From positions 434,001 through 498,000 of the forward strand of contig NZ_CP061498.1 of NCBI RefSeq assembly GCF_014681765.1: DNA of 64,000 nucleotides. The letters are read 5' to 3'. Positions 2 through 59,735 of this stretch are shown in pieces. Every line of letters begins with the position of its first letter. Position 1 is the first letter of the stretch. A program made the position numbers and the translations under genes. This stretch comes from Roseicitreum antarcticum. GTDB taxonomy: Bacteria; Pseudomonadota; Alphaproteobacteria; Rhodobacterales; Rhodobacteraceae. The notes beneath the pieces are model-generated. The model searched no databases. It was not told the DNA's origin and was given only the letters and a program-made list of their open reading frames with translations.

Positions 2-340
2 GCCGCCTATGCCGCGCGCTATCTGGCCAAGAACGTGGTGGCTGCCGGGATGGCCGAGCGCTGCACAATCCAGCTTTCCTATGCTATCGGCGTCGCCAAA
101 CCGTTGTCGATCTATGCCGACACGCACGGTACAGGGCAGGTGCACGAATCCGCGATCGAGCGCGCAGTTGCCCGCGCCATGGACCTGACCCCACGCGGCA
201 TCCGTACGCATCTGGGCCTCGACCGCCCGATCTATGCACGCACCGCCGCCTATGGCCACTTTGGCCGCGCGCCCGAGGCCGACGGCGGCTTCAGTTGGGA
301 ACGCACCGACCTGGCCGAGGCGCTGAAGAAAGAAGTCTGA
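2..340 (+). CDS. metK: S-adenosylmethionine synthetase, C-terminal part (cut by window edge)
   Basis: C-terminal 112 residues of methionine adenosyltransferase, which makes S-adenosylmethionine from methionine and ATP in the cytoplasm. The reading frame is open from base 2 and the start lies outside the window. Family features visible are the [16 protein letters not shown] block, the DTHGTG segment and the final domain with [18 protein letters not shown] and YGHFGR. The gene ends TGA and is followed about 60 bases later by a strong terminator hairpin. trmB, a SAM-using tRNA methylase often linked to metK in Rhodobacterales, lies downstream, here separated by an SDR gene on the other strand. 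Confidence 0.95.
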
Positions 341-397
341 CCGCCTCGCGCCCACGTCATGGGCGCGAAAGCGCGCCTACATAACGGAACACATCAT

Positions 398-45428: not shown

Positions 45429-46250
45429 ATGCCCGATTTCACCGCAGCCGATGGCGCGCGGCTGCATTACACCGACGAAGGCCATGGCGTGCCGCTTCTG
45501 TGTCTCGCCGGGCTGACGCGCGACGGGCGCGACTTTGACTATCTGGCACCGCATCTGCCGCCGCTGCGGCTGATCCGCCCCGATTATCGCGGGCGTGGGC
45601 AGTCCGACTGGACCGGTGCCGCGACCTATACTGTCGCCCAGGAGGCAGCGGATGCGCTGGCGTTGCTGGATCATTTGCGCCTGAACTCCGCCGTGGTACT
45701 GGGCACGTCGCGCGGTGGGATCATCGGCATGTATCTGGCCGCCACCGCACCGGACCGTCTGCGCGGGCTGTGCCTGAACGATGTAGGCCCGGTGATCGAG
45801 GGGTCGGGGCTGGCCCGGATCGCCGACTACATCGGTGTGAATCCCGCCGCGCGCAGCCATGCCGCCGCCGCCGTGGCGCTGGAACACGCGATGAGCGATT
45901 TCGCCAATGTCCCCAAGGGCCGGTGGATGGCCGAGGCCCGCAAGCATTTCAACGCGACCGACAACGGGCTGGAACTGACCTATGACCCCGCCTTGCGTAA
46001 CGCCTATCTGGCGGCGATGACGGGCGGCGTCACCGATATGTGGCCGTTGTTCGACGCCTGCAATGGCCTGCCGTTGGCGCTGATCCGGGGGGCGAATTCC
46101 AACCTTCTGTCGCGCGACACGGCCGAGGAGATGCAGCGCCGCCGTCCCGACATGATCTTTGAGGAGGTGCCAGACCGTGGCCATATCCCCTTCCTGGATG
46201 AACCCGCATCGCTGCGCGCCGTCCACCAGTTGCTGGGGCGGTGCCTTTAG
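45429..46250 (+). CDS. Alpha/beta hydrolase
   Basis: A 273-residue single-domain hydrolase. The nucleophile Ser94 is in GTSRGGIIG, the oxyanion region in LAGLTRDGRDF, the acid near the C-terminal third and the His in GHIPFLDEPASL. GGAGG lies eight bases before the ATG. The substrate is not known; the family covers esterases, lactonases and haloalkane-like hydrolases. A threonine dehydratase-like gene follows 217 bases later. Confidence 0.88.
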   Translation: MPDFTAADGARLHYTDEGHGVPLLCLAGLTRDGRDFDYLAPHLPPLRLIRPDYRGRGQSDWTGAATYTVAQEAADALALLDHLRLNSAVVLGTSRGGIIGMYLAATAPDRLRGLCLNDVGPVIEGSGLARIADYIGVNPAARSHAAAAVALEHAMSDFANVPKGRWMAEARKHFNATDNGLELTYDPALRNAYLAAMTGGVTDMWPLFDACNGLPLALIRGANSNLLSRDTAEEMQRRRPDMIFEEVPDRGHIPFLDEPASLRAVHQLLGRCL

Positions 46251-46467
46251 GGGCGGTGCCCCGGGCGCTGGCCTCGGTATCGACAAGACACGTTGCAGCC
46301 AGCCGCATCAATGTAGGCACCCCGCGCATCTGCGCACCACGGGTGATGATGACCAACGCTGACAATCGCTGTGCCTGCACCGCCAATTTTCCCCGCGCGC
46401 AGGCGCAGCGACAAAGGGCATCCGGCCCGCAGCACGAACCCTGACACTTGAAAGAAAGCCAAACGAC

Positions 46468-47463
46468 ATGACCATCGCTGAGCATACCATGCCCGTCGCC
46501 CCCGATCTGGCCGCCATCATGGCCGCGCAGGCCCGGCTGACGGGCAAGGCGCGGGTGACGCCGCTTTTGTCTTCCCCCTTCCTTGACGACATCGCCGGGC
46601 GGCGTGTGCTGGTGAAGGCGGAATGCCTGCAACACACCGGCAGCTTCAAGTTTCGCGGCGCGTGGTCGGCGATCTCGGCGCTGCCGGACAGCCTGCGCGC
46701 GCGCGGTGTGCTGGCGTTTTCCAGCGGCAACCATGCGCAAGGTGTGGCGCTGGCCGCCCGGATGCATGGCGTCGCGGCGGTGATCTTGATGCCCGCCGAT
46801 GCGCCGCAGGTGAAGATCGCCAACACCCGCGGGCTGGGGGCCGAGGTGGTGCTTTATGATCGCGCGACCGGCGACCGCGATGCGCTGGGGGCCGAACTGG
46901 CCGCGACACGGGGCCTGACGCTGATAAAACCCTTCGACAACCACGATGTGATCGCCGGGCAGGCCAGCGTCGGGCTGGAAATCGCCGTACAGGCCGCGGC
47001 CGAGGGCGTGAGTGCCGCCGATGTGCTGGTCTGCTGCGGTGGCGGTGGGCTGACCTCGGGCATCGCGCTGGCGCTGGAGGGGCATGCCCCCGGCCTGCGC
47101 GCCCGCCCGGCAGAGCCTGAGGGGTTCGACGATGTTGCCCGCTCGCTCGCCACGGGCAAGCGGCAGGCCAATACCCTGCGCACCGGGCTGTGCGACGCGA
47201 TTGTGACGCCGACGCCGGGCGATCTGACATGGCCCGTGATCCAGCGCCTGTGCGGGCCGGGGCTGGTGGTCAGCGACACGCAGGCCCTGCGCGCCATGGC
47301 GTTGGCGTTCGAGCGGTTGCGCATCGTGCTGGAGCCTGGCGGCGCCGTGGCGCTGGCTGCGGCACTGTTCCACCCCGATGCCGTGACGGGCGACGCGGTG
47401 ATCGCCGTCGCCTCGGGCGGGAATGTGGACCGCGCGGTGTTTGAGCGCGCGCTGGCGCTGTAG
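46468..47463 (+). CDS. Threonine/serine dehydratase-like PLP enzyme
   Basis: A 331-residue fold type II PLP enzyme. The cofactor Lys61 is in HTGSFKFRGA, followed by SSGNHAQGVALAA, the phosphate loop CCGGGGLTSG and SGGNVDR at the end. It lacks a C-terminal ACT domain, so it resembles catabolic threonine dehydratase, serine racemase or related ammonia lyases. GAAAG lies before the ATG. Strict substrate assignment is not possible from sequence. Confidence 0.88.
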   Translation: MTIAEHTMPVAPDLAAIMAAQARLTGKARVTPLLSSPFLDDIAGRRVLVKAECLQHTGSFKFRGAWSAISALPDSLRARGVLAFSSGNHAQGVALAARMHGVAAVILMPADAPQVKIANTRGLGAEVVLYDRATGDRDALGAELAATRGLTLIKPFDNHDVIAGQASVGLEIAVQAAAEGVSAADVLVCCGGGGLTSGIALALEGHAPGLRARPAEPEGFDDVARSLATGKRQANTLRTGLCDAIVTPTPGDLTWPVIQRLCGPGLVVSDTQALRAMALAFERLRIVLEPGGAVALAAALFHPDAVTGDAVIAVASGGNVDRAVFERALAL

Positions 47464-47806
47464 GTCAGGGCCGGGACGCGGTGGGCTGGGCATGACGCTG
47501 AGACGTCGGGGTGCCAAGGGCTTTCCGTGTCGGGGTTGGGGAAAGCGCCTATGCCATCCGTGCCCCGTCGCCTAGGCAATGCAGTGGGAAGACAGCGATG
47601 CGGGCGGGGGCAAAAGTCCCGGGCCAGCCCTTGATCAGCCGCACGCCCCTTCCACATGGGCGTTTCGCCCGCCGGGGGATCTGGCGCCGCAGCGTCTGTT
47701 TTTCGCATGGAACGGCACGGCATTCGGTGGTTTAAGCAATGGGAATACGGGCGGACAGCGCGGGACTGCGCACCCGCCCGCCCTTCATCCGGTAAAGGAG
47801 ATACCC
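47464..47806. other. Intergenic region before pcaD, no gene seen
   Basis: About 340 bases. The pcaD frame is open upstream, but the translation shows no family features. The right end has an excellent ribosome site (AAAGGAG). Confidence 0.5.
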
Positions 47807-48595
47807 ATGCATATGGCCGATCTGGGCGGCATCCGCCTGCATTACCGCATCGACGGCAACCCCGAGGGGCGGCCCGTCGTCTTCTCGAACTCGCTCGGCA
47901 CTGATCTGCGGATGTGGGACAAGGTCATCGCGCGACTGCCGCAATCGCTGCGCCTGATCCGCTATGACCGGCGCGGGCACGGGCTGTCCGACGCGCCGCC
48001 CGCGCCCTATGCCATGGGCCAGTTGGTGCGGGATACTGAGCAGCTTCTGGACCATCTGGCGGTACGGGATTGCGTGTTCGTCGGCCTGTCCATCGGTGGC
48101 ATGGTGGCACAAGGGCTGGCGGTGAAGCGGCTGGACATGGTGCGCGCGCTGGTCCTGTCGAACACTGCCGCCAAGATCGGCACGCCGCAGATGTGGCACG
48201 ACCGCATCGCCAGTGTGGCGTCCGGCGGGGTCGAGGTATTGGCCGACGCGGTGATGGAGCGCTGGTTCTCGCGCCCCTTCCGCGCCACGCCCGAGGCTGC
48301 GGCCTGGCGCAATATGCTGACGCGCACGCCGGTCGATGGCTATGCAGGGTGTTCGGCGGCGATTGCGGGTACCGATTTCTACACCACCACCGCCAGCCTG
48401 ACCCTGCCGACGCTGGGCATCGCGGGGACCGAAGACGGATCGACCCCGCCCGATCTGGTGCGCGAGACGCTTGGCCTGATAAAGGGGTCCGAGATGGCGG
48501 TGATGCACGGCGTGGGCCACATTCCGTGCGTGGAGGACCCCGATGCCTATGCCGCGCTGCTCAACGACTTTCTGACGCGGCTGGGGCATGTGTGA
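47807..48595 (+). CDS. pcaD: 3-oxoadipate enol-lactonase
   Basis: A 262-residue alpha/beta hydrolase that opens 3-oxoadipate enol-lactone in the protocatechuate branch of the beta-ketoadipate pathway. Family features are LHYRIDG, VVFSNSLGTDLRMWDKV, RLIRYDRRGHGLSD, the nucleophile Ser95 in GLSIGGMVAQGLA, and GHIPCVEDP with the His. The other pca genes are not in the window. It would process protocatechuate made by the QuiC product, which is a pathway-based link only. Confidence 0.88.
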   Translation: MHMADLGGIRLHYRIDGNPEGRPVVFSNSLGTDLRMWDKVIARLPQSLRLIRYDRRGHGLSDAPPAPYAMGQLVRDTEQLLDHLAVRDCVFVGLSIGGMVAQGLAVKRLDMVRALVLSNTAAKIGTPQMWHDRIASVASGGVEVLADAVMERWFSRPFRATPEAAAWRNMLTRTPVDGYAGCSAAIAGTDFYTTTASLTLPTLGIAGTEDGSTPPDLVRETLGLIKGSEMAVMHGVGHIPCVEDPDAYAALLNDFLTRLGHV

Positions 48596-48638
48596 CGGCG
48601 GGCCCGGTTGATTTGGCGCAATAGCAAGTCTTGCGTGG

Positions 48639-48659
48639 TCGTGGGTCGTGGGTCGTGGG
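48639..48659. repeat. 7-bp tandem repeat (TCGTGGG, three units)
   Basis: Three exact 7-bp units lie in the 297-base space after pcaD. I see no hairpin or gene here, only a short slippage-prone repeat. Confidence 0.7.
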
Positions 48660-48892
48660 TGGCGGGTAGTGATCCGGGCCGTGCCTGCACGGGGGGTGTA
48701 TCTGACTCGCAATGCGCCCTGCGTGGATGAGCCACCGCAAAGGCCAGGGGCCGCGCGGCGGGAGACGATACGCCGAAAGGCAGGCGAGGCGCCGGCCGAC
48801 ATGGCCGCCCGGAGTTGCGGGGGCAGGGGCTGCAAAACCGGATGGCGCGCCGCGACGGCGCGTCCTCTCTGGCGGTAGAGGTAGGGGGAGAT

Positions 48893-49612
48893 ATGGCCGA
48901 ATTTCTGCTGATCCATGGATCTTGCCATGGGGCATGGTGCTGGCGCGATGTGTTGCCGCACTTGCACGCGCTGGGGCACGGCGCGCGGGCGATTGACCTA
49001 CCCGCGCATGGTGCCGACACGACGCCACTGGAAGACGTAACGCTGGACCTCTATGCCCGCGCGATTGTCGCGGCCATGGAAACCGCCCCCGCGCCAGTGG
49101 TGTTGGTGGGGCATTCCATGGCGGGCTATCCGATCTCTGCCGCCGCCGAACTGGCCCCCGCGTTGATCCAAAAGCTGGTCTATCTCTGCGCCTATGTGCC
49201 GGTCTCGGGCCATTCGCTGGTGCAGATGCGGCAGGCGGCGCCCGCGCAACCCCTGTTGGAGGCGATCCGCAAGACCCCCGACGGGCTGGCCTTCACCATT
49301 GATCCGGCGCAGGCCGAGGCAAAGTTCTACCATGATTGCCCGCCCGAGGCCGTGGCCTATGCCATCGCGCGCCTTGGCCCGCAGCCAATCTTGCCGCAGG
49401 CCACGCCGCTGCGTCTGGGCGCGGCATATGCCAGCGTGCCGCGCCACTACATCCGCTGCACCGATGACCGCACCATCCCCCCGGAGTATCAAGTGACCAT
49501 GACGCGCGACTGGCCGCAGGAAGATGTGAGCGCGTTGGACACGTCGCATTCCCCGTTCTTCACAGCCCCACAGGCGCTGGCCGACCGGCTGATCGCCTGC
49601 GCCGCTGGCTGA
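48893..49612 (+). CDS. Alpha/beta hydrolase, salicylate-esterase/hydroxynitrile-lyase-like
   Basis: A 239-residue hydrolase. The start MAEFLLIHGSCHGAWCW and the DLPAHGAD segment, the nucleophile Ser75 in GHSMAGYPI, an Asp in CTDDRTIPP and a His in LDTSHSPFFTAPQAL match the RsbQ/plant-esterase-like family. The frame is open upstream to 48815, but the chosen ATG has GGGGAG just before it. The substrate is not known. Confidence 0.88.
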   Translation: MAEFLLIHGSCHGAWCWRDVLPHLHALGHGARAIDLPAHGADTTPLEDVTLDLYARAIVAAMETAPAPVVLVGHSMAGYPISAAAELAPALIQKLVYLCAYVPVSGHSLVQMRQAAPAQPLLEAIRKTPDGLAFTIDPAQAEAKFYHDCPPEAVAYAIARLGPQPILPQATPLRLGAAYASVPRHYIRCTDDRTIPPEYQVTMTRDWPQEDVSALDTSHSPFFTAPQALADRLIACAAG

Positions 49613-49685
49613 GTGCGGGGTGCGGAACGCTTTGGCAATGAGCGCCCCGCAAGAACCGCTGACGAGACATGGACATGCGCCGCCT

Positions 49686-50831
49686 TCAGAAACAGGCGGT
49701 GATCAGCGCGCGGGTGTTTTCAGGCGTCATGGCGACCGGGTTGCCGCCCACGCTGGGGTCTTCCAGCGCCATGGCGGTCAGATCGTCGATGCGGTCGGTC
49801 GGCACGCCCATCTGCGTCAGGTTCAGCGGGATGTTCAGCCCGACGTTCAGCGCGGCGACATCGGCCACGAACCCGTCGAACCCGCCCGTGATCCCCAGAT
49901 AGGCGGCGGCGGCCTCGATCCGCGACTCGATGGCTTCGCGGTTGAAGGCCAGTACCGGGGCCATGACGGCTGCGTTCGTGGTGCCATGGTGCGTTCCATA
50001 AACAGCTCCCACCGGATGGCTGATGGCATGGATCGCGCCCAGCCCCTTCTGGAAGGCCACGGCGCCCATGGCACCCGCTGCCATCATCTGCGCCCGCGCT
50101 TCCAGATCCGTGCCATCCGCATAGGCGCGCGGCAGGTAAGTGCGCACAAGGCGCATGCCTTCCAGCGCCATGCCATGGCTCATCGGGTGGAAATGCGGGC
50201 TGCAATAGGCCTCCAGGCAATGGGCGAAGGCGTCCATGCCCGTACCTGCGGTGATCGCGGGGGGCATGCCCACGGTCAGTTCGGGGTCGCATATCACCTG
50301 CGCAGGCAGGACGCGGGGATGAAAGATGATCTTCTTCACATGGGTGACCGAATTGGTGAGCACGCTGGCGCGCCCGACCTCGGACCCGGTGCCCGCAGTG
50401 GTGGGCACCGCGACGATGGGGGCAATGCCGGCCGCATCGGCGCGGGTCCACCAGTCGCCCACATCCTCAAAGTCCCAGATCGGGCGGGACTGGCCGGACA
50501 TGAAGGCCACCATCTTGCCCAGGTCGAGGCCAGAGCCGCCGCCAAACGCGATCACGCCGTCATGTCCGCCGGCATGATAAGCCCGGAGACCGGCTTCGAG
50601 GTTGACCTCGGACGGGTTCGGGTCGACCTCGGCGAAGATCGCGCGGCCCAGACCCGCTTTCTCCATCAGGTCGAGCGTGCGCGCGGTGATCGGCAGCGCG
50701 GCCAGCCCGCGGTCGGTGACCAGCAAGGGCTTTGAAATTCCCGCCGCCGCGCAGGCAGCCGCGATTTCCGCGATCCGGCCCGCGCCGAAACGGATGTTGG
50801 TGGGGTAGGACCAATTGGCGGTAAGCGTCAT
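49686..50831 (-). CDS. Iron-containing alcohol dehydrogenase
   Basis: A 381-residue group III alcohol dehydrogenase. The NAD-binding motif FGGGSGLDLGK, VPTTAGTGSE, and metal ligands in AGTGMDAFAHCLEAY, HPMSHG, GAIHAISHPVGAVYGTHHG are present. It overlaps the aldehyde dehydrogenase gene by four bases (ATGA), so an alcohol-aldehyde-acid sequence is likely. It is the last gene of the operon that starts at 57827. Confidence 0.93.
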   Translation of the reverse strand: MTLTANWSYPTNIRFGAGRIAEIAAACAAAGISKPLLVTDRGLAALPITARTLDLMEKAGLGRAIFAEVDPNPSEVNLEAGLRAYHAGGHDGVIAFGGGSGLDLGKMVAFMSGQSRPIWDFEDVGDWWTRADAAGIAPIVAVPTTAGTGSEVGRASVLTNSVTHVKKIIFHPRVLPAQVICDPELTVGMPPAITAGTGMDAFAHCLEAYCSPHFHPMSHGMALEGMRLVRTYLPRAYADGTDLEARAQMMAAGAMGAVAFQKGLGAIHAISHPVGAVYGTHHGTTNAAVMAPVLAFNREAIESRIEAAAAYLGITGGFDGFVADVAALNVGLNIPLNLTQMGVPTDRIDDLTAMALEDPSVGGNPVAMTPENTRALITACF

Positions 50832-52207
50832 TTCTGCAACTTTCTGAAGTGGTAGGATTTGGGCCGTGTCAGGTTGTGATAGCCGATGACCGACAGTCCG
50901 CCGCCCTTGCCGGTGGTCTTGCAGCCGGTCCAGCACAGCGCAGGATCGAGGTAATCGGCGCGGTTGAGAAAGATTGTCCCGGTTGCGACCTGCGCGCCGA
51001 TCCGCAGCGCGCGGTCCACATCGTGCGTCCACAGGCTGGCGGTCAGGCCGTAGGGGCTGTCGTTCATCAACGCCAGCGCCTCGGCATCGTCGCGCACCGG
51101 CATGATGCCAACGACCGGGCCAAAACTTTCGTCGCGCATCACGGCCATATCATGGGTCACGCCGGTCAGGATCTGCGGGGTCAGGTAGCAGCCGCCGTCA
51201 TCTGCGGCCATGCGCGCGATATGCGCGGTGGCGCCTGCCGCCACGGCGGCGTCGATCTGCCCGCGCACGGTGTCGGCAAAGCGGCGTGCGGCCATGGGGC
51301 CGATGGTGGTGGCTTCATCGCGCGGGTCGCCCAGCACGTAGCTGTTCACCAGCGCCACGGATTTCGCCACAAAGGCATCGAACAGGCTTTCATGGACATA
51401 AATCCGCTCGATCCCGCAGCAGCACTGGCCCGAGTTGAACATTGCCCCGTCGATCAGCACCGCCACGGCGGTGTCGAGGTCGGCGTCTTCCATGACATAT
51501 CCCGGGTCCTTGCCGCCCAGTTCCAACCCCATGGGCACGAAAGTGCCCGCCGCCGCGCGTTCCATCGCCTGCCCCCCCGCGACCGAGCCGGTGAAGTTGA
51601 CGAAATCAAAGGCCCGTGCGCCGATCAGATCGCTGGTGGTGGCATGGTCCAGAAAGACGTTCTGGAACACGTCACGCGGGATGCCCGCGCTGTGGAAGGC
51701 GCGCGCCATTCGCTCGCCGACCAGCAGCGTCTGGGTGGCGTGTTTCAGCACCACTGTATTGCCCGCGATCAGCGCGGGCGCCACCGTGTTGATCGCGGTC
51801 ATATAGGGATAGTTCCAGGGCGCGATGACCAGCACGACGCCATGGGGCTCGCGGATGATCTGGCGCAGGAAGGCGTCCGAATCCTCGACCCCGATGGGGG
51901 CGAGCGCTTCTGCGGCGATGGTCGCCATGTGGTTCGCGCGTTCCTCGAAACCGCCGAATTCGCCGCCAAACCGCACGGGGCGGCCCATCTGCCCGGCAAG
52001 TTCGGGCACGATCTCGTCATTCATGGCGCCGACGGCAGCCACGCCTGCCTGCACCAGCGCAATACGCTCGGCCAGCGGGCGAGCAGCCCAGGCGGCCTGT
52101 GCGTCGCGCGCGCGCGTGGCTGCGGCGTGCGCGGCGTGCGCCGACAGGGCGGCGCGTTCGGCATAGACAGAGCCGTCGATGGGAGAAATGCACTGAAGTG
52201 TCGTCAT
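50828..52207 (-). CDS. Aldehyde dehydrogenase
   Basis: A 459-residue NAD(P)-dependent aldehyde dehydrogenase. It has VLVIAPWNYPYMTAINTVAPAL, FTGSVAGG, the catalytic Glu in LELGGKDPGYV and the catalytic Cys in NSGQCCCGIERIYV, plus the ESFGPVVGI block. AGGA lies seven bases before the ATG. Translation is coupled to the alcohol dehydrogenase. With the glutamine-synthetase-like gene upstream it may oxidise a glutamylated aldehyde, as PuuC does in putrescine breakdown. Confidence 0.93.
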   Translation of the reverse strand: MTTLQCISPIDGSVYAERAALSAHAAHAAATRARDAQAAWAARPLAERIALVQAGVAAVGAMNDEIVPELAGQMGRPVRFGGEFGGFEERANHMATIAAEALAPIGVEDSDAFLRQIIREPHGVVLVIAPWNYPYMTAINTVAPALIAGNTVVLKHATQTLLVGERMARAFHSAGIPRDVFQNVFLDHATTSDLIGARAFDFVNFTGSVAGGQAMERAAAGTFVPMGLELGGKDPGYVMEDADLDTAVAVLIDGAMFNSGQCCCGIERIYVHESLFDAFVAKSVALVNSYVLGDPRDEATTIGPMAARRFADTVRGQIDAAVAAGATAHIARMAADDGGCYLTPQILTGVTHDMAVMRDESFGPVVGIMPVRDDAEALALMNDSPYGLTASLWTHDVDRALRIGAQVATGTIFLNRADYLDPALCWTGCKTTGKGGGLSVIGYHNLTRPKSYHFRKLQK

Positions 52208-52464
52208 GTCGGGTTCCTGATGGGTTTGTGGCCCGGGGGCTGGTAGTGGTTTGAGGCGCTGCTGGTGGGGGCGCCGCCCCTTGCGCCGCTGTTCAGTTCA
52301 GATCACGTGCGACCCAGACGTTCAAGCGACCCGTCGCTGGTGTGCGGTTCTGGCGGCGATCCTGGGGCGGCTTTCCACCGTGCAGCGTCGCGCAAGGGCC
52401 TGCGCCGGGGCTTGGCCGTCTTCGCATCCCCTGCGCTGCTGCGCGAGGTGGTCCACACCATTCC

Positions 52465-53841
52465 TCAGCATCGCTCGAACCCGCGCTGGACTTCCCAGTC
52501 GGTCACTACGCGGTCGGCCTGCGACACCTCCCATCGGGCGGCATGGGTGTAATGGTCGATCACCGCGTCGCCGAAGGCCGCGCGCAGCATGGCCGACCCT
52601 TCCAGTGTGTCGGCCGCGTCGCGCAGGGTTCGGGGCAGGGCGGGGGCATCGCCCGCATAGGCGTCGCCTGCGAAGGCGGGGGGCAGTTCCATCTGCCCCT
52701 CAATCCCGGCGATTCCGGCCGCGATCAGGGCGGCCATCGCGAGGTAGGGGTTCAGATCCGCTCCGCCGATCCGGCATTCCATCCGCACAGCCTTGGTGCC
52801 CGCGCCACACAGCCGGTAGCCTGCGGTGCGGTTGTCGGTGGACCAAACGGTGGACGTCGGCGCAAAAGTGCCCGATTGAAAGCGTTTGTAGCTGTTCACA
52901 TAGGGTGCGAGGAAATAGCAGATCTCGGCGGTGTGGGCCAGTTGCCCGGCGGTGAACTGCCGCATCAGCGCCGACATGGTGTCGGGCGCGTCGGGGTCGT
53001 GGAAGGCCGATGCGCCATCGGCATGCAGCAGCGACATGTGCACATGCGACGAGGATCCGACGCGGTCATGGTGCCATTTCGCCATGAACGTCACCGCGCG
53101 CCCCTTCGACCAGGCGATTTCCTTGCAGCCGTTCTTCACAACCGAGTGGTTGTCGGCGGTGTCGAGCGCGTCTGAATAGCGGACGTTGATCTCTTCCTGC
53201 CCGGCCTCGGCCTCGCCTTTGGAATTCTCGACCGGAATGCCCGCGCCATAAAGCCCGTTGCGGATGGCACGCATCACATCCTCTTCCTTGGTGGTCTGGA
53301 AGATGTGGTAATCCTCATTATAGCCGCTGATCGGCGTCAGCCCGGCGAAATTGCTGTCGCGCAGGGCGTCATAGCTTTCGCGGAACAGGAAGAATTCCAA
53401 CTCCGTCGCCATCATCGCGCGCAGACCCATCGCTTCCAGCCGTGCCACCTGCCGCTTGAGGATCGCGCGGGGGGAATGGGGCACCTCGGCGTGGGTGTGG
53501 TGGTCAAGGATGTCGCACAGCACCAGCGCCGTCCCCTCCAGCCACGGGATATGCCGCAAGGTGGTCATGTCGGGCTGCATGACATAATCGCCATAGCCCG
53601 CCTGCCAACTGCTGGAGGCATAGCCCGGCACGGTGTGCATCTCCAGGTCTGTGGCCAGCAGATAGTTGCAGCAATGCGTTTCACGCCACGCGCTGTCGAC
53701 AAAATGCTGGGCATGAAAGCGTTTGCCCATCAACCGGCCCTGCATGTCGACGCCGCAGGCCAGCACGGTGTCGATGGAACCGCTCGCAACGGCGGCTTTG
53801 AGGCTGTCATGGGTCAGGTTTCCGGGCATCAGGGCACTCAT
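52465..53841 (-). CDS. Glutamine-synthetase-like gamma-glutamyl ligase (PuuA/IpuC type)
   Basis: A 458-residue GS-family ligase. Key elements are ATELEFFLF, the metal Glu in EAEAGQEEINVRY, the His-Val-His in SSSHVHMSLL, NSYKRFQSGTFAP, and CRIGGADLNPYLAM with the Arg for glutamate. It lacks the adenylation Tyr loop of true glutamine synthetase. Members join glutamate to amines (putrescine, isopropylamine, ethanolamine). With ALDH, ADH, TRAP and an amidohydrolase it suggests amine or amino-alcohol breakdown; the true substrate is open. Confidence 0.88.
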   Translation of the reverse strand: MSALMPGNLTHDSLKAAVASGSIDTVLACGVDMQGRLMGKRFHAQHFVDSAWRETHCCNYLLATDLEMHTVPGYASSSWQAGYGDYVMQPDMTTLRHIPWLEGTALVLCDILDHHTHAEVPHSPRAILKRQVARLEAMGLRAMMATELEFFLFRESYDALRDSNFAGLTPISGYNEDYHIFQTTKEEDVMRAIRNGLYGAGIPVENSKGEAEAGQEEINVRYSDALDTADNHSVVKNGCKEIAWSKGRAVTFMAKWHHDRVGSSSHVHMSLLHADGASAFHDPDAPDTMSALMRQFTAGQLAHTAEICYFLAPYVNSYKRFQSGTFAPTSTVWSTDNRTAGYRLCGAGTKAVRMECRIGGADLNPYLAMAALIAAGIAGIEGQMELPPAFAGDAYAGDAPALPRTLRDAADTLEGSAMLRAAFGDAVIDHYTHAARWEVSQADRVVTDWEVQRGFERC

Positions 53842-54007
53842 TTCTGTTCAGGGTCAGTGGGTTGGCGCAGGATCGGCAGGGTAGGGGCTTTGGGTAACGG
53901 TGCGGGAAAGCCTGCCCGCAAGGTCGGGGTCGGACGCCGCAGGGGGGGGCATGCGGGCGCGGGGCGTTGCCGTCCCCGCGCCCAGTGTAGAAAGCTATCG
54001 CCGGGCT

Positions 54008-54034
54008 GCCCCACCGGCGCGGGGCCGGTGGGGC
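54008..54034 (-). terminator. 11-bp perfect hairpin after dctP
   Basis: GCCCCACCGGC and GCCGGTGGGGC form a perfect stem with a 5-base loop, nine bases after the dctP stop on the minus strand. No T-run follows. It probably stabilises the dctP transcript or partly ends it before the ligase gene. Confidence 0.65.
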
Positions 54035-54042
54035 GTGATGCC

Positions 54043-55077
54043 TTAGCGGTAGGGGCTGCCTGCGCGGTCCATCGCGGCGTTGTAATCCTTGAAGATCTGC
54101 ACAACGCGGGCCTTGGTTTCCGATTCGGCCGCGATCTCGTCCCAGAATTCGCGCGCGGCGGTTTCCACCGTCGCCCATTCCTCGGCGGGGATCGTCGTCA
54201 GTTCCAGCTTGGTGCCCTCGGTGCGCAGCCGTGCTTCACCTGCCCAGTACCAGTGCTGGCGATAGTAATGGCTTTGCTGGCAGCAGGTCTCGAACAGGGT
54301 TTGCAAATGTTCGGGCAATTCGTTCCAGCGGTCCATATTGGCGAAGAAATGCCCGATCCACGCGCCCGAGATGTTGTTGGTCACGAAGTAGCTGGCAACA
54401 TCGGCCCAGCCGACCTGATAGGCCTCGGTGATGCCCGCCCAGGCGATCCCGTCCAATTCGCCCGTCTGCATGGCGATTTCCACGTCTTCCCACGGCACGG
54501 TGACCGGCACGACGCCAAATCGCGACAGGAAGCGTCCGGCGGTGGGGAAGGTGAAGACCCGCTTGCCTTCCAGATCGGCAAGGCTGGTCACAGGTTCGCG
54601 CATGGTGAAATGGCACGGGTCCCAGGCACCGGCCGACACGTGTTTCACGCCGACGCTGGCATATTCCTCCGCCCAGATCTCATTGAGGCCCCAATCGTTG
54701 AAAAGTGCCGGCACATCGAGCGAATGGCGGCTGGCAAAGGGGAAATAGCCGCCGAAAACCCGCACTTCGGTGGGGCTGGCCATGGAATCGTCATCTGACT
54801 GAACGGCGTCGATGGTTCCGCGCTGCATGGCCTGAAAAAGCTCTCCCGTGGGGACAAGCTGATCGGCAAAGAACAGGTCGATCTGCATCTCATCGCCCGC
54901 GATGGCGTTGAACATGTCGATGGCGGGCTTCGCCACCTGTTCGCCAAGCGCGCCGCCCGCATAGGTCTGCATGCGCCAGCGGATGGTGGATTGTGCATGC
55001 ACGGCGGGGGCAGCGAGGGTGGCGGCACCTGCGGCCAATGCGCCGCTGGTCAGGAACTTGCGTCTGGTTGTGGTCAT
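54043..55077 (-). CDS. dctP: TRAP transporter periplasmic binding protein DctP (second system)
   Basis: A 344-residue binding protein with a twin-arginine signal (TTTRRKFLTSG, cut after VHA near residue 28). It belongs to the DctP group with RWRMQTYAGG, FFADQLVPTGELFQAMQRGTIDAVQ, KRVFTFPTAGRFLSRFG and GELDGIAWAGITEAYQVGW. In this branch the conserved binding Arg block is changed (RVFTFPTAG instead of LRMPG), so the ligand may not be a simple dicarboxylate. GGAGG lies seven bases before the ATG. Confidence 0.92.
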   Translation of the reverse strand: MTTTRRKFLTSGALAAGAATLAAPAVHAQSTIRWRMQTYAGGALGEQVAKPAIDMFNAIAGDEMQIDLFFADQLVPTGELFQAMQRGTIDAVQSDDDSMASPTEVRVFGGYFPFASRHSLDVPALFNDWGLNEIWAEEYASVGVKHVSAGAWDPCHFTMREPVTSLADLEGKRVFTFPTAGRFLSRFGVVPVTVPWEDVEIAMQTGELDGIAWAGITEAYQVGWADVASYFVTNNISGAWIGHFFANMDRWNELPEHLQTLFETCCQQSHYYRQHWYWAGEARLRTEGTKLELTTIPAEEWATVETAAREFWDEIAAESETKARVVQIFKDYNAAMDRAGSPYR

Positions 55078-55165
55078 GATCGGTCCTCCGGTTGGATGAC
55101 CCAGGATTGGGTCGGGGGTTGGGGCGGAAATGGGCGCGTTGGCCGCGCCGCGTTGGAAATTCGGG

Positions 55166-56494
55166 TCAGGGCGTGTACAGCACCTGCGGCAGCCAAAGCG
55201 CGATCTGCGGGAAGGCCATCACCAGGGCGAGCGCCAGGATCATAACCGATACAAATGGCACGATGGAGCGGTAGATATCGGCCAGCGTCACCTCGGGCGG
55301 GGCCATGGCGCGCATCAAGAACAGGTTGTAGCCAAAGGGCGGCGTCATGTAGGCGATCTGGCAGGTCATCGTATAAAGCACGCCATACCAGACCAGATCG
55401 AACTCCAGCATCCGCACGATGGGCACATAAAGCGGCGCGACGATGACCAGCATCGCCGTGTCGTCCAGAAACGTGCCCATCAAGATAAACGAAAGCTGCA
55501 TCAGGATCAGGATTTCCCAACGCCCAAGGCCCAGGTTGTCCATGAACAGCGCGCGCACGAAATCCACCGCACGCAGCCCGTCGAAGACTGCGCCAAATGC
55601 CAGCGCCGCCAGGATGATCCACATGAACATACAGGTGATGGCCAAGGTGTGGCGGGTCACTTTTTCCAGCACGTCAAATGTCATGCGGCCCTTGGCGATC
55701 GCGGCAAGAAGGGCTGCCAGCGCCCCGATGACCGAGCTTTCGACCAGCCGGGTATAGCCCAGCACGAAAGGCACCATCATCACCACGAAGATGCCCAGCG
55801 GCAGCAGGCCCGCCAGCAGCAGGCGGTTCTTTTCAGACCGGCTGACTGCCGCGCGGTCCGCGTCCGATATGGCCGGGCCAAGCGCCGGATTGATCTTGCA
55901 GCGTACCCAGATGTAGAGAATGAACATCAAAGCCATCATCAGCCCCGGCACGATGCCTGCCAGCCACAGCTGACCCACCGGCTGGCGTGCGATCATCGCA
56001 TAAAGCACCATGACGACCGAGGGGGGGACCAAGATCCCCAGGCTCGACCCGGCCTGAATGACGCCCGTGACCATGCGTTTGTCGTAATTACGGCGCAGCA
56101 GTTCGGGCAGGGCAATCGTGGCGCCAATCGCCATGCCCGCCACCGACAGCCCGTTCATCGCCGAGATCAGGACCATCAAGACGATTGTGCCAATCGCCAG
56201 CCCACCGGGTACCGGGCCGAACCAGACGTGGAACATGCGGTACAGGTCATCCGCCAGTTTGCTTTCCGACAGCACATAGCCCATGAAAATGAACATCGGC
56301 AGGGTCAGCAGCGGGAACCAGTTCATCAGCTTGATGCTCTGGGCAAAGGCCAGATCATAGCCGCCCCGGTCACCCCAGAGGAACAGCGCCGCCACCACGG
56401 CGACAAAGCCGATGATGCCGAACATGCGCTGCCCGGTCATCAGCATGACCAGCATCGATCCGAACATCAGCATCGCGATCATGTCATATGACAT
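55166..56494 (-). CDS. dctM: TRAP transporter large membrane subunit DctM (second system)
   Basis: A 442-residue permease with about twelve hydrophobic segments. Blocks are LLTLPMFIFMGYVLSESKLADDLY, ISAMNGLSVAGMAIGATIALPELL, AGSSLGILVPPSVVMVLYAMIARQ and AYMTPPFGYNLFLMRAM. The start at 56494 overlaps the dctQ stop by one base; the open frame upstream of it is dctQ shadow. The transported compound is delivered by the DctP at 54043. Confidence 0.92.
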   Translation of the reverse strand: MSYDMIAMLMFGSMLVMLMTGQRMFGIIGFVAVVAALFLWGDRGGYDLAFAQSIKLMNWFPLLTLPMFIFMGYVLSESKLADDLYRMFHVWFGPVPGGLAIGTIVLMVLISAMNGLSVAGMAIGATIALPELLRRNYDKRMVTGVIQAGSSLGILVPPSVVMVLYAMIARQPVGQLWLAGIVPGLMMALMFILYIWVRCKINPALGPAISDADRAAVSRSEKNRLLLAGLLPLGIFVVMMVPFVLGYTRLVESSVIGALAALLAAIAKGRMTFDVLEKVTRHTLAITCMFMWIILAALAFGAVFDGLRAVDFVRALFMDNLGLGRWEILILMQLSFILMGTFLDDTAMLVIVAPLYVPIVRMLEFDLVWYGVLYTMTCQIAYMTPPFGYNLFLMRAMAPPEVTLADIYRSIVPFVSVMILALALVMAFPQIALWLPQVLYTP

Positions 56495-57000
56495 CAGATT
56501 TCCCGGCCCCGCAGTTTTGCAATGTCGCGGATCAGAAATGCCGTGCATTGCAGCAGCATCATGAGGATCCCGATACACATGATGATCTTGATCGGCGCCA
56601 TATAGGGCTGCCAGATGCCGCGCCGCCGCTCGCCATATTCCAGCGCGTATTGCGTGCTTTCGATCCCGCCCCAGAGCAGGACGCCCAGATAAACCAGCAG
56701 CGTCAGAATGGTGATCGCATCGACCACCGCGCGCGTGCGGTCCGACCAGCGGGAATACAGCAGATCCATGCGCACCGCCGAGCCCAGTTGCAGCGAATAT
56801 GCGCCGCCCAGCATGAAATACCCCATCAGCAAGAACTGCCCCATCTCATCGGTCCAGATCTGGGGGCTGAACCAGGCGCGCGATACAGCACCCCACAGCA
56901 GCACGGCCATCAGGGCGAAGATCATGTACATCATGATCCGGCCCACGCGGTGGTTGAACGCCTCGACCGCGCGGACATAGGTGATGAGGAAGCCGGGCAT
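56494..57000 (-). CDS. dctQ: TRAP transporter small membrane subunit DctQ (second system)
   Basis: A 168-residue four-helix protein with AVLLWGAVSRAWFSPQIWTDEM, LLMGYFMLGGAYSLQLGSAVRMDLLY and a last helix IIMCIGILMMLLQCTAFLI, the DctQ pattern. It overlaps both the amidohydrolase stop and the dctM start by one base each (TGATG), so all three are translated together. Confidence 0.9.
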   Translation of the reverse strand: MPGFLITYVRAVEAFNHRVGRIMMYMIFALMAVLLWGAVSRAWFSPQIWTDEMGQFLLMGYFMLGGAYSLQLGSAVRMDLLYSRWSDRTRAVVDAITILTLLVYLGVLLWGGIESTQYALEYGERRRGIWQPYMAPIKIIMCIGILMMLLQCTAFLIRDIAKLRGREI

Positions 57001-57827
57001 CAGCGCGCCCCCGCCTTGGCCGGGGCGGATTGCGCGCCGCTTTCCAGCAGCGCATGCGCCAGCACCGGGGCGAGGGTGCGGGCCATGACATCTTGCGTGG
57101 CGGGCGTGGCGATGAGGTCGTTGCGCACCTCCAGCATGGCGCTTGGCAGGCCGTAGGGGGTCGCATGCAGCCGCAGCGTATGGGTCACGTCGTCCGCTGC
57201 ACTGTAGGGCGCGTTCAGCGCACTGCGCAGCGTGGTCATGGCGTCGGCACCGGCGACAATCGCCTGCGCCAGCGTGGGGTCGGCATCATGGATCACGCCG
57301 AATTCCAGCGTGCGCCGCTTGCCGTGAAACACCGGCGTGAAGGAATGCACACTGATCAGAGCGGGGCGCAGGCCGCGGGCCAGTTGGCGCGCAACCGCAT
57401 CGTGCAGCGTGGCGTGAAAGGGGGTGTAAATGGCGGCGATACGGTCTTGGCGTGCCTGCGCGCCGATGGCGGCGTTTCCGGGGATATCATAGACTTCGGA
57501 CCGTGCGGGCATCGCGCCGGGATGGTCGGGCGCGCGGTTGCAATCGACGATCAGCCGCGACAGCGGCGCGTGGATCAGCATCGCCCCCAGCCGCGCTGCC
57601 AGCCCCCTTGCCAGCCCCAGCGCACCGGGGTCCCAGGCGATGTGGGCCTGACGCTCGGCCTCGGTCAGGCCAAGCTCGCCCCAAGGTGCGGCAAAGCGGT
57701 TGGAGGCGTGTTCGCACACCAAGATCAGCCCGGCAGAGCCTTCGGCGGCGTTTGTATCCCGCTCATGGCTCACCAGCCCGGGCCAGCGCCCGCCGGGGGC
57801 ATCGTGCATTTGCGCCGTTTGTGTCAT
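57000..57827 (-). CDS. N-formylglutamate amidohydrolase-family protein
   Basis: A 275-residue hydrolase of the HutG/N-formylglutamate amidohydrolase family. It has the metal motif LVCEHASNRF, AHIAWDPGALGLARGLAARL, LIVDCNRAPD, a Arg/His-rich SVHSFTPVF and EFGVIHDAD. It is the first gene of the minus-strand operon and is not near hut genes. It may release glutamate from a glutamyl or acyl-glutamyl intermediate of this pathway, which is inference. The divergent RpiR regulator lies 165 bases away. Confidence 0.85.
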   Translation of the reverse strand: MTQTAQMHDAPGGRWPGLVSHERDTNAAEGSAGLILVCEHASNRFAAPWGELGLTEAERQAHIAWDPGALGLARGLAARLGAMLIHAPLSRLIVDCNRAPDHPGAMPARSEVYDIPGNAAIGAQARQDRIAAIYTPFHATLHDAVARQLARGLRPALISVHSFTPVFHGKRRTLEFGVIHDADPTLAQAIVAGADAMTTLRSALNAPYSAADDVTHTLRLHATPYGLPSAMLEVRNDLIATPATQDVMARTLAPVLAHALLESGAQSAPAKAGAR

Positions 57828-57858
57828 GCCCGCAGCCTGTGTTGTTTCGCATCAGATC

Positions 57859-57877
57859 GTGCCGGAGAATCCGGTAC
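57859..57877. promoter_or_regulatory. Inverted repeat in the amidohydrolase-rpiR divergent region
   Basis: GTGCCGG and CCGGTAC flank AGAAT with one mismatch. It lies 31 bases upstream of the amidohydrolase start and is a candidate regulator site. Confidence 0.4.
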
Positions 57878-57917
57878 CTTTGTTGGTTCAGCCTGTTTCA
57901 GCGCGCCGTCATATGTC

Positions 57918-57930
57918 AAGAATTTTTCTT
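57918..57930. promoter_or_regulatory. AAGAA-TTT-TTCTT palindrome upstream of rpiR gene
   Basis: A perfect 5-bp inverted repeat in an AT-rich stretch, 62 bases before the regulator ATG. RpiR-family proteins often bind AT-rich palindromes, so autoregulation is possible. Confidence 0.4.
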
Positions 57931-57992
57931 CGGTGGATTTTCTGTTACAAATCGCACATGCTGGCGGCCAGACGCGCGACAAAGGCCTTGCC

Positions 57993-58865
57993 ATGCCCGA
58001 TCAGACCCAGACCACAGATGTCTTGCTGCGCGAGGCGCTGCCCAACCTCAGCCGGGCGGAGCGCCAGCTTGCCGCCCATATTCTGGGCAATTTTCCGGTG
58101 CCCGCGCTGGGGTCGGTCTCGGCCCTTGCGCGGGGGGCGGGGGTGTCGGGGCCGACGGTGGTGCGGCTGGTGCAGCGGCTGGGTTTCAGCGGCTATCCGC
58201 AGTTTCAGGCGCGTATCCGCGACGAGATCGGCGAGAAACTGGCGAGCCCGCTGGTAAAGCGTGATAAATGGGCAGAGAGCACGGCGGTTGAGCATATTCT
58301 GAACCGTTTCGCCAATGTGGTCGTCGAAAACCTGCAAGCGACGCTGGGCCAGATCGATCATGCGACATTTGATGCCGTGGCTGATCTGCTGGCCGACCCC
58401 GACCGCCGCATCTATGCCATGGGGGGGCGGATCACCCATGCGCTGGCTGACTACTTTGCCTCTGTCATGAAGGTGATGCGCGGCGATGTTACCTTGATGT
58501 CCGATATGTCGAACACGTGGCCACCCGCGCTTCTGGATATGAAACGCGGCGATGTGCTGATGGTGATGGACATCCGGCGGTATGAGAACTCTGTCCTGCA
58601 AGTCGCTGAAATGGCTCGCGAACACGGGGCAGAGGTGGTGTTGATCACTGACCGCTGGGTGTCGCCCGCTGCCGCCCATGCCACGCATCTGCTGCCATGT
58701 CATATCGAGGCGCCATCGGCATGGGATTCCACCGCCTCGCTCTTGGTGGTGATCGAGACGCTGCTGGCGGCGGTGCAAAGCCGCAATTGGGCTGAAACCG
58801 AAGCGCGGCTTAACCGGATGGAAGATCTTTTTGCACGCACGCACTTCTTTCGCCGCCCACGCTGA
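57993..58865 (+). CDS. RpiR/MurR-family transcriptional regulator
   Basis: A 290-residue regulator with an N-terminal helix-turn-helix (about 1-77; LSRAERQLAAHIL, SVSALARGAGVSGPTVVRLVQRLGFSGYPQFQ) and a C-terminal SIS sugar-phosphate-binding domain (about 115-265; RRIYAMGGRITHALADYF, VLMVMDIRRYENSVLQVAEMAREHGAEVVLITD). AAAGG lies before the ATG. It is divergent from the amidohydrolase-TRAP operon and likely controls it. RpiR proteins next to TRAP operons are common in Rhodobacterales. Confidence 0.92.
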   Translation: MPDQTQTTDVLLREALPNLSRAERQLAAHILGNFPVPALGSVSALARGAGVSGPTVVRLVQRLGFSGYPQFQARIRDEIGEKLASPLVKRDKWAESTAVEHILNRFANVVVENLQATLGQIDHATFDAVADLLADPDRRIYAMGGRITHALADYFASVMKVMRGDVTLMSDMSNTWPPALLDMKRGDVLMVMDIRRYENSVLQVAEMAREHGAEVVLITDRWVSPAAAHATHLLPCHIEAPSAWDSTASLLVVIETLLAAVQSRNWAETEARLNRMEDLFARTHFFRRPR

Positions 58866-59054
58866 AAATTGCGGCGAAAATTATTTGAAACATGAACTAT
58901 GTGAGTTAATGGTCTGATACTAAGGGACTTTAATGCCTCTACCTGAGGTTGTGTCTCCGAATCAGGCCGCCCGAATCATAAAAAGGATTATCTTTTTTGT
59001 AATGTTTTGCTGTACCTTTTGGCCTTGGGAATTTGCCTTCAGGGACGTCAGGCG
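58866..59054. other. AT-rich intergenic island
   Basis: About 190 bases distinctly richer in A and T than the flanking genes, with an AAAAAGGATTATCTTTTTT near-palindrome at 58979-58998. It can hold the end of the rpiR transcript and the promoter of the deacetylase gene. Confidence 0.5.
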
Positions 59055-59735
59055 ATGGCACGCGCGATCATCAATTTTCATGGAATAGGCCCGGTGCCGC
59101 GCCCGCTGGCGCCGGGCGAGGATGATTTCTGGCTCGACATGGGTCAATTCCGGGCCGTGCTCGATCTGGTCATGGAGATGGCGCCGGAACTGCGCCCCCT
59201 TCTTACATTTGACGACGGCAACCTGTCAGACATCGACCGCGCCGCGCCAGAGCTGGCCGCGCGCGGGCTGAAGGCGCAGTTCTTTGCGCTGTCCGGGCGG
59301 CTGGGAGAGCGCTATTTCCTGGGCGCCGGGCATCTGCGCGATTTGCGTGCTGCGGGGCACGGCATCGGGTTGCATGGCGCCGATCACGTTGACTGGCGCG
59401 GGCTGGACGCCGAGGGCCAGCGCCGGGAATTTGTCGATGCGCGCCAGATACTTGAGGATGCAAGCGGCAGTTTCATCACCGCCGCTGCCGTGCCCTTCGG
59501 GCGATATGACCGGCGCGTGCTGCGCCAGTTGCGCGCGGCCGGTTTTAGCGCGGTCTACACATCCGACTGCGGGGTGATGCGCCCCGGCGCCTGGCTGTGC
59601 CCCCGCAGTTGCCTTCGCCACAGCATGGACCAGCGCGTCGTCTTGTCATGCCTCACAGGGCGTGTCCCGCTGCAACAACGCCCGCGCCGCTGGATCGGGG
59701 TTGTCAGAAAGCGCGCGTTGCCTATACTAGCTTGA
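59055..59735 (+). CDS. Polysaccharide deacetylase-family protein
   Basis: A 226-residue protein with NodB-like features: INFHGIGPVP at the start, LTFDDGNLSD with Asp53-Asp54, HGIGLHGADHVDW with paired His, and AVPFGRYDRRVLRQLRAAGF. It is shorter than typical deacetylases and has no signal peptide. It could remove acetyl groups from an envelope or exopolysaccharide sugar. A glycosyltransferase gene follows. AGGGA lies about ten bases before the ATG. Confidence 0.82.
   Translation: MARAIINFHGIGPVPRPLAPGEDDFWLDMGQFRAVLDLVMEMAPELRPLLTFDDGNLSDIDRAAPELAARGLKAQFFALSGRLGERYFLGAGHLRDLRAAGHGIGLHGADHVDWRGLDAEGQRREFVDARQILEDASGSFITAAAVPFGRYDRRVLRQLRAAGFSAVYTSDCGVMRPGAWLCPRSCLRHSMDQRVVLSCLTGRVPLQQRPRRWIGVVRKRALPILA

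Follow-up and report, generated by a model that had tools for sequence, protein, structure and literature searches.

The Puu pathway of E. coli (putrescine) and the Ipu pathway of Pseudomonas (isopropylamine/alaninol) also proceed through gamma-glutamyl activation, with other substrates, transporters and releasing hydrolase than the ethanolamine operon considered here. We analysed a 64,000-nucleotide stretch of the Roseicitreum antarcticum genome (contig NZ_CP061498.1, positions 434,001 to 498,000; hereafter the window, whose own numbering is used throughout), and we are highly confident that its operon at 49686-57827 is a known system of ethanolamine uptake and gamma-glutamylation. The counterpart in Phaeobacter sp. 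MED193 is the ethanolamine operon MED193_10021-10056, with the order RpiR-GGAH-EtoV-EtoW-EtoX-ETAGA-GAADDH-GETADH (PMC10132767, Sci Adv 2023). As reported in that paper, EtoX binds ethanolamine with a dissociation constant of 7.9 uM and showed no binding of phosphorylethanolamine, phosphocholine, glycerol-1-phosphate or glycerol-3-phosphate, and five operon proteins were upregulated on phosphorylethanolamine, with EtoX also upregulated without phosphate. Citing Vetting et al. 2015, who reportedly had proposed such a pathway for Chromohalobacter before, the same paper calls the MED193 genes close to an ethanolamine pathway found in Chromohalobacter salexigens and in A. tumefaciens C58. In Streptomyces coelicolor, GlnA4 belongs to a gamma-glutamylethanolamide route (SCO1610-1615) with a predicted formylglutamate amidohydrolase last and a Phe at the E327 flap; as reported, this pathway uses a short-chain dehydrogenase whereas the window encodes an iron alcohol dehydrogenase, and its relatives carry a permease in place of a tripartite ATP-independent periplasmic (TRAP) transporter (PMC6529630).

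All eight gene types of the MED193 operon are encoded in the window and follow one another as they do there, with the RpiR gene at the FGase end; the likeness was drawn from gene set and order alone, and no difference was found in either. Seven of the genes lie on the minus strand from 57827 to 49686, every product scoring above its own Pfam cut-off, with a divergent regulator gene beside them. Here GS denotes glutamine synthetase.

57993..58865, plus strand: RpiR/MurR-family regulator (HTH_6 43.8 bits, SIS 60.1 bits), start MPDQTQ, counterpart of MED193_10021
57000..57827, minus strand: FGase-family amidohydrolase, predicted gamma-glutamylglycine amidohydrolase (GGAH); PF05013 140.6 bits (cut-off 28.9)
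56494..57000, minus strand: TRAP small permease DctQ (EtoV); PF04290 79.6 bits (cut-off 28.3)
55166..56494, minus strand: TRAP large permease DctM (EtoW); PF06808 239.3 bits (cut-off 23.8)
54043..55077, minus strand: predicted TRAP ethanolamine-binding protein DctP (EtoX); DctP 70.3 bits (cut-off 23.4)
52465..53841, minus strand: GS-like gamma-glutamyl ligase, predicted ethanolamine gamma-glutamylase (ETAGA); Gln-synt_C 324.2 bits (cut-off 24)
50828..52207, minus strand: aldehyde dehydrogenase, predicted gamma-glutamylacetaldehydeamide dehydrogenase (GAADDH); Aldedh PF00171 375.1 bits (cut-off 23)
49686..50831, minus strand: iron alcohol dehydrogenase, predicted gamma-glutamylethanolamide dehydrogenase (GETADH); Fe-ADH PF00465 153.9 bits (cut-off 31.3), also ADH_Fe_C PF25137 139.4 bits (cut-off 27)

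The minus-strand set named in the first-pass annotation, made from the sequence alone (a hydrolase, a complete TRAP transporter, a GS-like ligase and two dehydrogenases), was thus borne out by all seven products. Its claim that a HutG-like hydrolase with a TRAP importer would be a new combination was not, as this combination is published in MED193 (PMC10132767); the system has already been described with identical gene order and is ordinary for Rhodobacteraceae. The start of DctM was refined to 56494, where it has one base in common with the end of DctQ, and the ATG of the iron alcohol dehydrogenase was refined to 50831 (the mechanical open reading frame start is 51032), giving a 4-base overlap with the aldehyde dehydrogenase stop. 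Gaps of 88, 201 and 257 nucleotides separate DctM from DctP, DctP from the ligase and the ligase from the aldehyde dehydrogenase, respectively. Judging by their order and strand, the seven genes are probably transcribed as a single unit. The divergent RpiR/SIS gene, lying just beyond 49686-57827, belongs to the conserved set.

Related loci (numbered L) were taken as the best 80 of at least 591 confirmed stretches. Conservation of the gene set in other genomes, a check that the first-pass annotation had proposed, was extensive: 58 of the 80 loci carried all eight genes in identical order and orientation, with RpiR divergent at the FGase end, and this retention excludes chance as an explanation of the gene set. 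The two Phaeobacter loci L076 and L092 both contained all eight genes in identical order. At least one gene was not found in the remaining 22 loci, several of whose contigs end inside the cluster; ten incomplete loci (L030, L033, L034, L036, L037, L043, L048, L059, L081, L082) have flanks of about 7 kb on both sides.

Co-occurrence was examined in 149 genomes of Rhodobacteraceae, using ortholog thresholds of E ≤ 1e-100 for EtoX and E ≤ 1e-120 for the GS-like ligase. EtoX orthologs were present in 86 of these genomes and ligase orthologs in 92, with both in 80, EtoX only in 6, the ligase only in 12 and neither in 51 (Fisher P = 1.7e-21, a value that overstates the case because the sampled genomes are related). 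Of the 80 genomes with both, 66 have the two starts no more than 3.5 kb from each other, 1 has them within 10 kb and 13 have the genes apart, and all 12 genomes with the ligase only also carried the alcohol dehydrogenase. Among the 80 related loci, DctM and DctP of the window were closest to loci L015-L025 (80-87% identity); the two dehydrogenases were nearer to other loci (up to 78-79%, e.g., L040, L045 and L076) than to L015-L025 (67-73%). A mosaic history of the operon at 49686-57827 is possible.

Compared with solved structures, the window DctP matched Csal_0678 from C. salexigens (4UAB/4XF5) with an E-value of 2.1e-178, the next solved sequence having an E-value of 6.5e-19. Alignment of its AlphaFold model with VIA-align 2 also placed 4UAB at the top (Z 30.6 and root-mean-square deviation (rmsd) 2.9 at 76% identity over 309 residues), and the best-placed entry other than Csal_0678 had a Z of 26.5. 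The predicted local distance difference test (pLDDT) score of this model was 69.7, a middling confidence, and the model was therefore used for residue register and PDB titles only. 4UAB was reportedly solved with ethanolamine, with Glu220 as the coordinating residue and aromatic side chains around the ligand (PMC12410723). Glu220 corresponds to residue 218 of the window protein (register: model 31..344 to chain 33..346), and a Glu occupies this position in all 74 proteins compared (73 full-length open reading frames and the window). These and the following residue counts were taken from full-length open reading frames of the 80 loci only (73 DctP, 57 GS-like ligase, 64 aldehyde dehydrogenase, 46 alcohol dehydrogenase and 63 FGase), truncated or odd-length frames having been dropped beforehand. 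The first-pass annotation had left the substrate as an unknown amine or amino alcohol, a description that no longer holds with 76% identity to the ethanolamine-binding Csal_0678; ethanolamine is most likely the imported amine. No match to EutB was detected in the R. antarcticum genome, and thus no ethanolamine ammonia-lyase route was found there.

The ligase matched 5DM3 (Csal_0679 of the gammaproteobacterium C. salexigens; E = 6.3e-208), and its model (pLDDT 80.9) aligned with this structure at Z 47.4 and rmsd 1.7 over 367 residues with 65% identity; the locus tag Csal_0679 directly follows that of the binding protein, Csal_0678. At the flap position, where true GS has Glu327, the window ligase has Phe326, and a Phe was found in 58 of 58 ligases (57 loci and the window). 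The paper on the ethanolamine ligase GlnA4 likewise places Phe331 at the Glu327 flap and describes the enzyme as also being without the Asp50 and Tyr179 residues of true GS (PMC6529630). Asp65 and Tyr178 lie near these two positions and were invariant in the same 58 ligases, and as the alignment is ambiguous there they count neither for nor against an ethanolamine ligase and the flap residue alone was used. Three further GS-family proteins are encoded in the R. antarcticum genome, one of which (GlnA-type) has Glu at the flap. A PDB entry titled glutamine synthetase from Brucella melitensis (11ZS) is 58% identical to the window ligase and also has Phe at the flap; this identity and the common flap residue suggest that the protein is a gamma-glutamyl ligase from the group of the window ligase rather than a glutamine synthetase.

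For the FGase-family protein, the only clear solved relative was 2ODF (Atu2144; E = 3e-64), presumably an Agrobacterium protein by its locus tag; a full alignment was made of 21 FGase proteins (the window and 20 of the 63 kept). Two further FGase-family genes in the R. antarcticum genome outscored the window copy on PF05013 (249.9 and 240.2 bits). Asp203, His207, His275, His284 and His285 of the iron alcohol dehydrogenase, which we take to be the metal ligands, were unchanged in 47 of 47 proteins. The Asn of PWNYP, the Glu of LELGGKD and the Cys of GQCCCG in the aldehyde dehydrogenase, presumably the catalytic residues, were unchanged in all 65 proteins.

From these relationships we infer each enzyme reaction of the window operon. 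EtoX would capture ethanolamine in the periplasm and EtoVW would bring it into the cell, where the GS-like ligase, using ATP, would couple it with glutamate at the gamma-carboxyl. Next, the iron alcohol dehydrogenase would oxidize the hydroxyl to an aldehyde and the aldehyde dehydrogenase would convert this aldehyde to gamma-glutamylglycine, from which the FGase-family hydrolase would release glycine and glutamate, regenerating the latter. This agrees with the logic that the first-pass annotation had proposed in parallel to Puu and Ipu, namely ligation to glutamate, oxidation of alcohol to aldehyde to acid and release of glutamate. Others have shown, for relatives of these proteins, the binding of ethanolamine and the raised protein levels on phosphorylethanolamine. 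The operon would link membrane-lipid turnover (ethanolamine from phospholipids) to carbon and nitrogen supply. The automatic names of its genes (glutamine synthetase, N-formylglutamate amidohydrolase, DctP) conceal the pathway, and correct labels are therefore useful for annotation.

It is quite improbable that the same chemistry serves a substituted amino alcohol as the physiological substrate, e.g., alaninol as in Ipu, with alanine as the product. The dehydrogenase pair would be expected to suit any 2-amino alcohol, and the second structure of Csal_0678 (4XF5) is reportedly a complex with 2-amino-1-propanol; close analogues of ethanolamine may also be taken by the binding protein, which is one of several points that weigh against our main reading of the operon. 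The coupling of EtoX and the ligase is also not absolute, since 6 of the 86 EtoX genomes had no ligase over the threshold and 12 of the 92 ligase genomes had no EtoX, and of the 6 EtoX-only genomes three had an alcohol dehydrogenase match and three had none; at least two of these six are incomplete drafts (G035, 86%; G129, 76%). Finally, the evidence reported for the Phaeobacter proteins comes from binding and proteomics, and a figure of that paper terms the pathway predicted (PMC10132767). The alaninol alternative is, however, countered by the response of the Phaeobacter operon to phosphorylethanolamine and by the 7.9 uM affinity of its EtoX for ethanolamine (PMC10132767), and ethanolamine is abundant as a lipid head group.

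A Puu-type pathway for putrescine or another polyamine has a negligible probability. Puu likewise relies on a ligase of the GS-like type together with an aldehyde dehydrogenase, but the window proteins fell far below the cut-offs of the Puu models, with the ligase scoring 191.1 against 650 bits for the gamma-glutamylputrescine synthetase model (NF045547) and the aldehyde dehydrogenase 182.5 against 850 bits for PuuC. The window also has an alcohol dehydrogenase in place of the amine oxidase of Puu, and its binding protein is close to an ethanolamine-binding protein. The automatic family names Gln-synt_C and FGase would fit an ordinary glutamine synthetase lying by chance beside an N-formylglutamate (histidine) pathway gene, a reading we find hardly credible: the ligase reached 218.3 of the 429.15 bits that NCBIfam requires of a type I GS and 229.5 of the 469.6 bits for type III GS, the FGase-family protein scored 26.2 bits against the 278.75 of the HutG equivalog TIGR02017, another GS gene in the genome scored higher on PF00120 than the window ligase (439.8 against 325.3 bits), and the gene order was kept across the 58 loci.

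Seven genomes (G001-G007) with an EtoX locus lacking the enzyme genes were examined for a GS-like ligase ortholog and for EutB. The ortholog was distant from EtoX in three (G001, G004 and G005; 67-69% identity) and adjoined it in G007 (67% identity), where only the dehydrogenases were not seen at the locus (L036). The other three (G002, G003 and G006; two Saccharospirillum and one Sneathiella) had no ligase ortholog, the best match being 34-35% identical. Their variant GS-like proteins (33-35% identity) have Trp at the flap, and the genes lie near relatives of the window aldehyde and alcohol dehydrogenases (53-56% identity, intact copies) in the following sets.

L095:6493-10706, minus strand: variant ligase/dehydrogenase set, Saccharospirillum
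L096:6257-10528, plus strand: variant ligase/dehydrogenase set, Saccharospirillum
L097:5295-13615, plus strand: variant ligase/dehydrogenase set, Sneathiella

In Saccharospirillum the variant ligase and two dehydrogenases are adjacent, and beside them lie genes for an FAD oxidoreductase and an ornithine cyclodeaminase-like protein (families scanned in L095). The genomes with variant sets carry EtoVWX at a separate place, and in the two Saccharospirillum EtoVWX adjoins RpiR without the enzymes; the complete operon of eight genes is present at L027, a third Saccharospirillum locus. Given the EtoVWX genes without enzymes and the non-orthologous ligase elsewhere in Saccharospirillum, the Eto importer may act as a movable unit that supplies more than one glutamylation pathway, and the window operon might accordingly accept small amino alcohols other than ethanolamine; we hold this reading to be unlikely, though worth considering. 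An alternative EutBC-type route in the seven genomes was considered and dropped, as EutB was detected in none of the seven (of 14 controls, only E. coli was positive). The Sneathiella alcohol dehydrogenase (L097:12438-13615) is broken by stops, with one TGA and one TAG in the longer piece, either because the gene has decayed or through an error in the draft assembly. At L098:6197-8747, in a genome (G059) without EtoX over the threshold, orthologs of the ligase and the alcohol dehydrogenase are adjacent; no relative of the window aldehyde dehydrogenase or TRAP genes was found in the 16 kb examined.

The divergent RpiR regulator probably controls transcription from the intergenic region that it shares with the operon, which contains one conserved element.

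57911..57928, minus strand: conserved TTGACA-containing box GAAAAATTCTTGACATAT, beginning 101 bases ahead of the FGase start

This box is a candidate promoter -35 element and/or RpiR operator. In an expectation-maximization motif search, each of the 63 upstream regions (those of 62 loci and of the window) was given a site, with a motif score of 960.7 compared to 405.5-412.0 in 8 single-base shuffles, a difference that common descent inflates. Together with the Saccharospirillum variant ligase, the box offers a small testable lead. No perfect inverted repeat could be named as the RpiR operator: the best word pair occurred in 5 of 53 regions, more than the 1-2 in 20 shuffles but too few for such an assignment. 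A generic promoter scan returned 1 site where chance alone would give 2.1, the box at 57911-57928 not being among its output, and a terminator scan returned 7 against 5.3 expected by chance; neither was given weight. No Rfam family matched across 49000-59200. Beyond the operon, three alpha/beta hydrolase genes and one pyridoxal phosphate-dependent (PALP) gene occupy 45429-49612 on the plus strand and converge on it.

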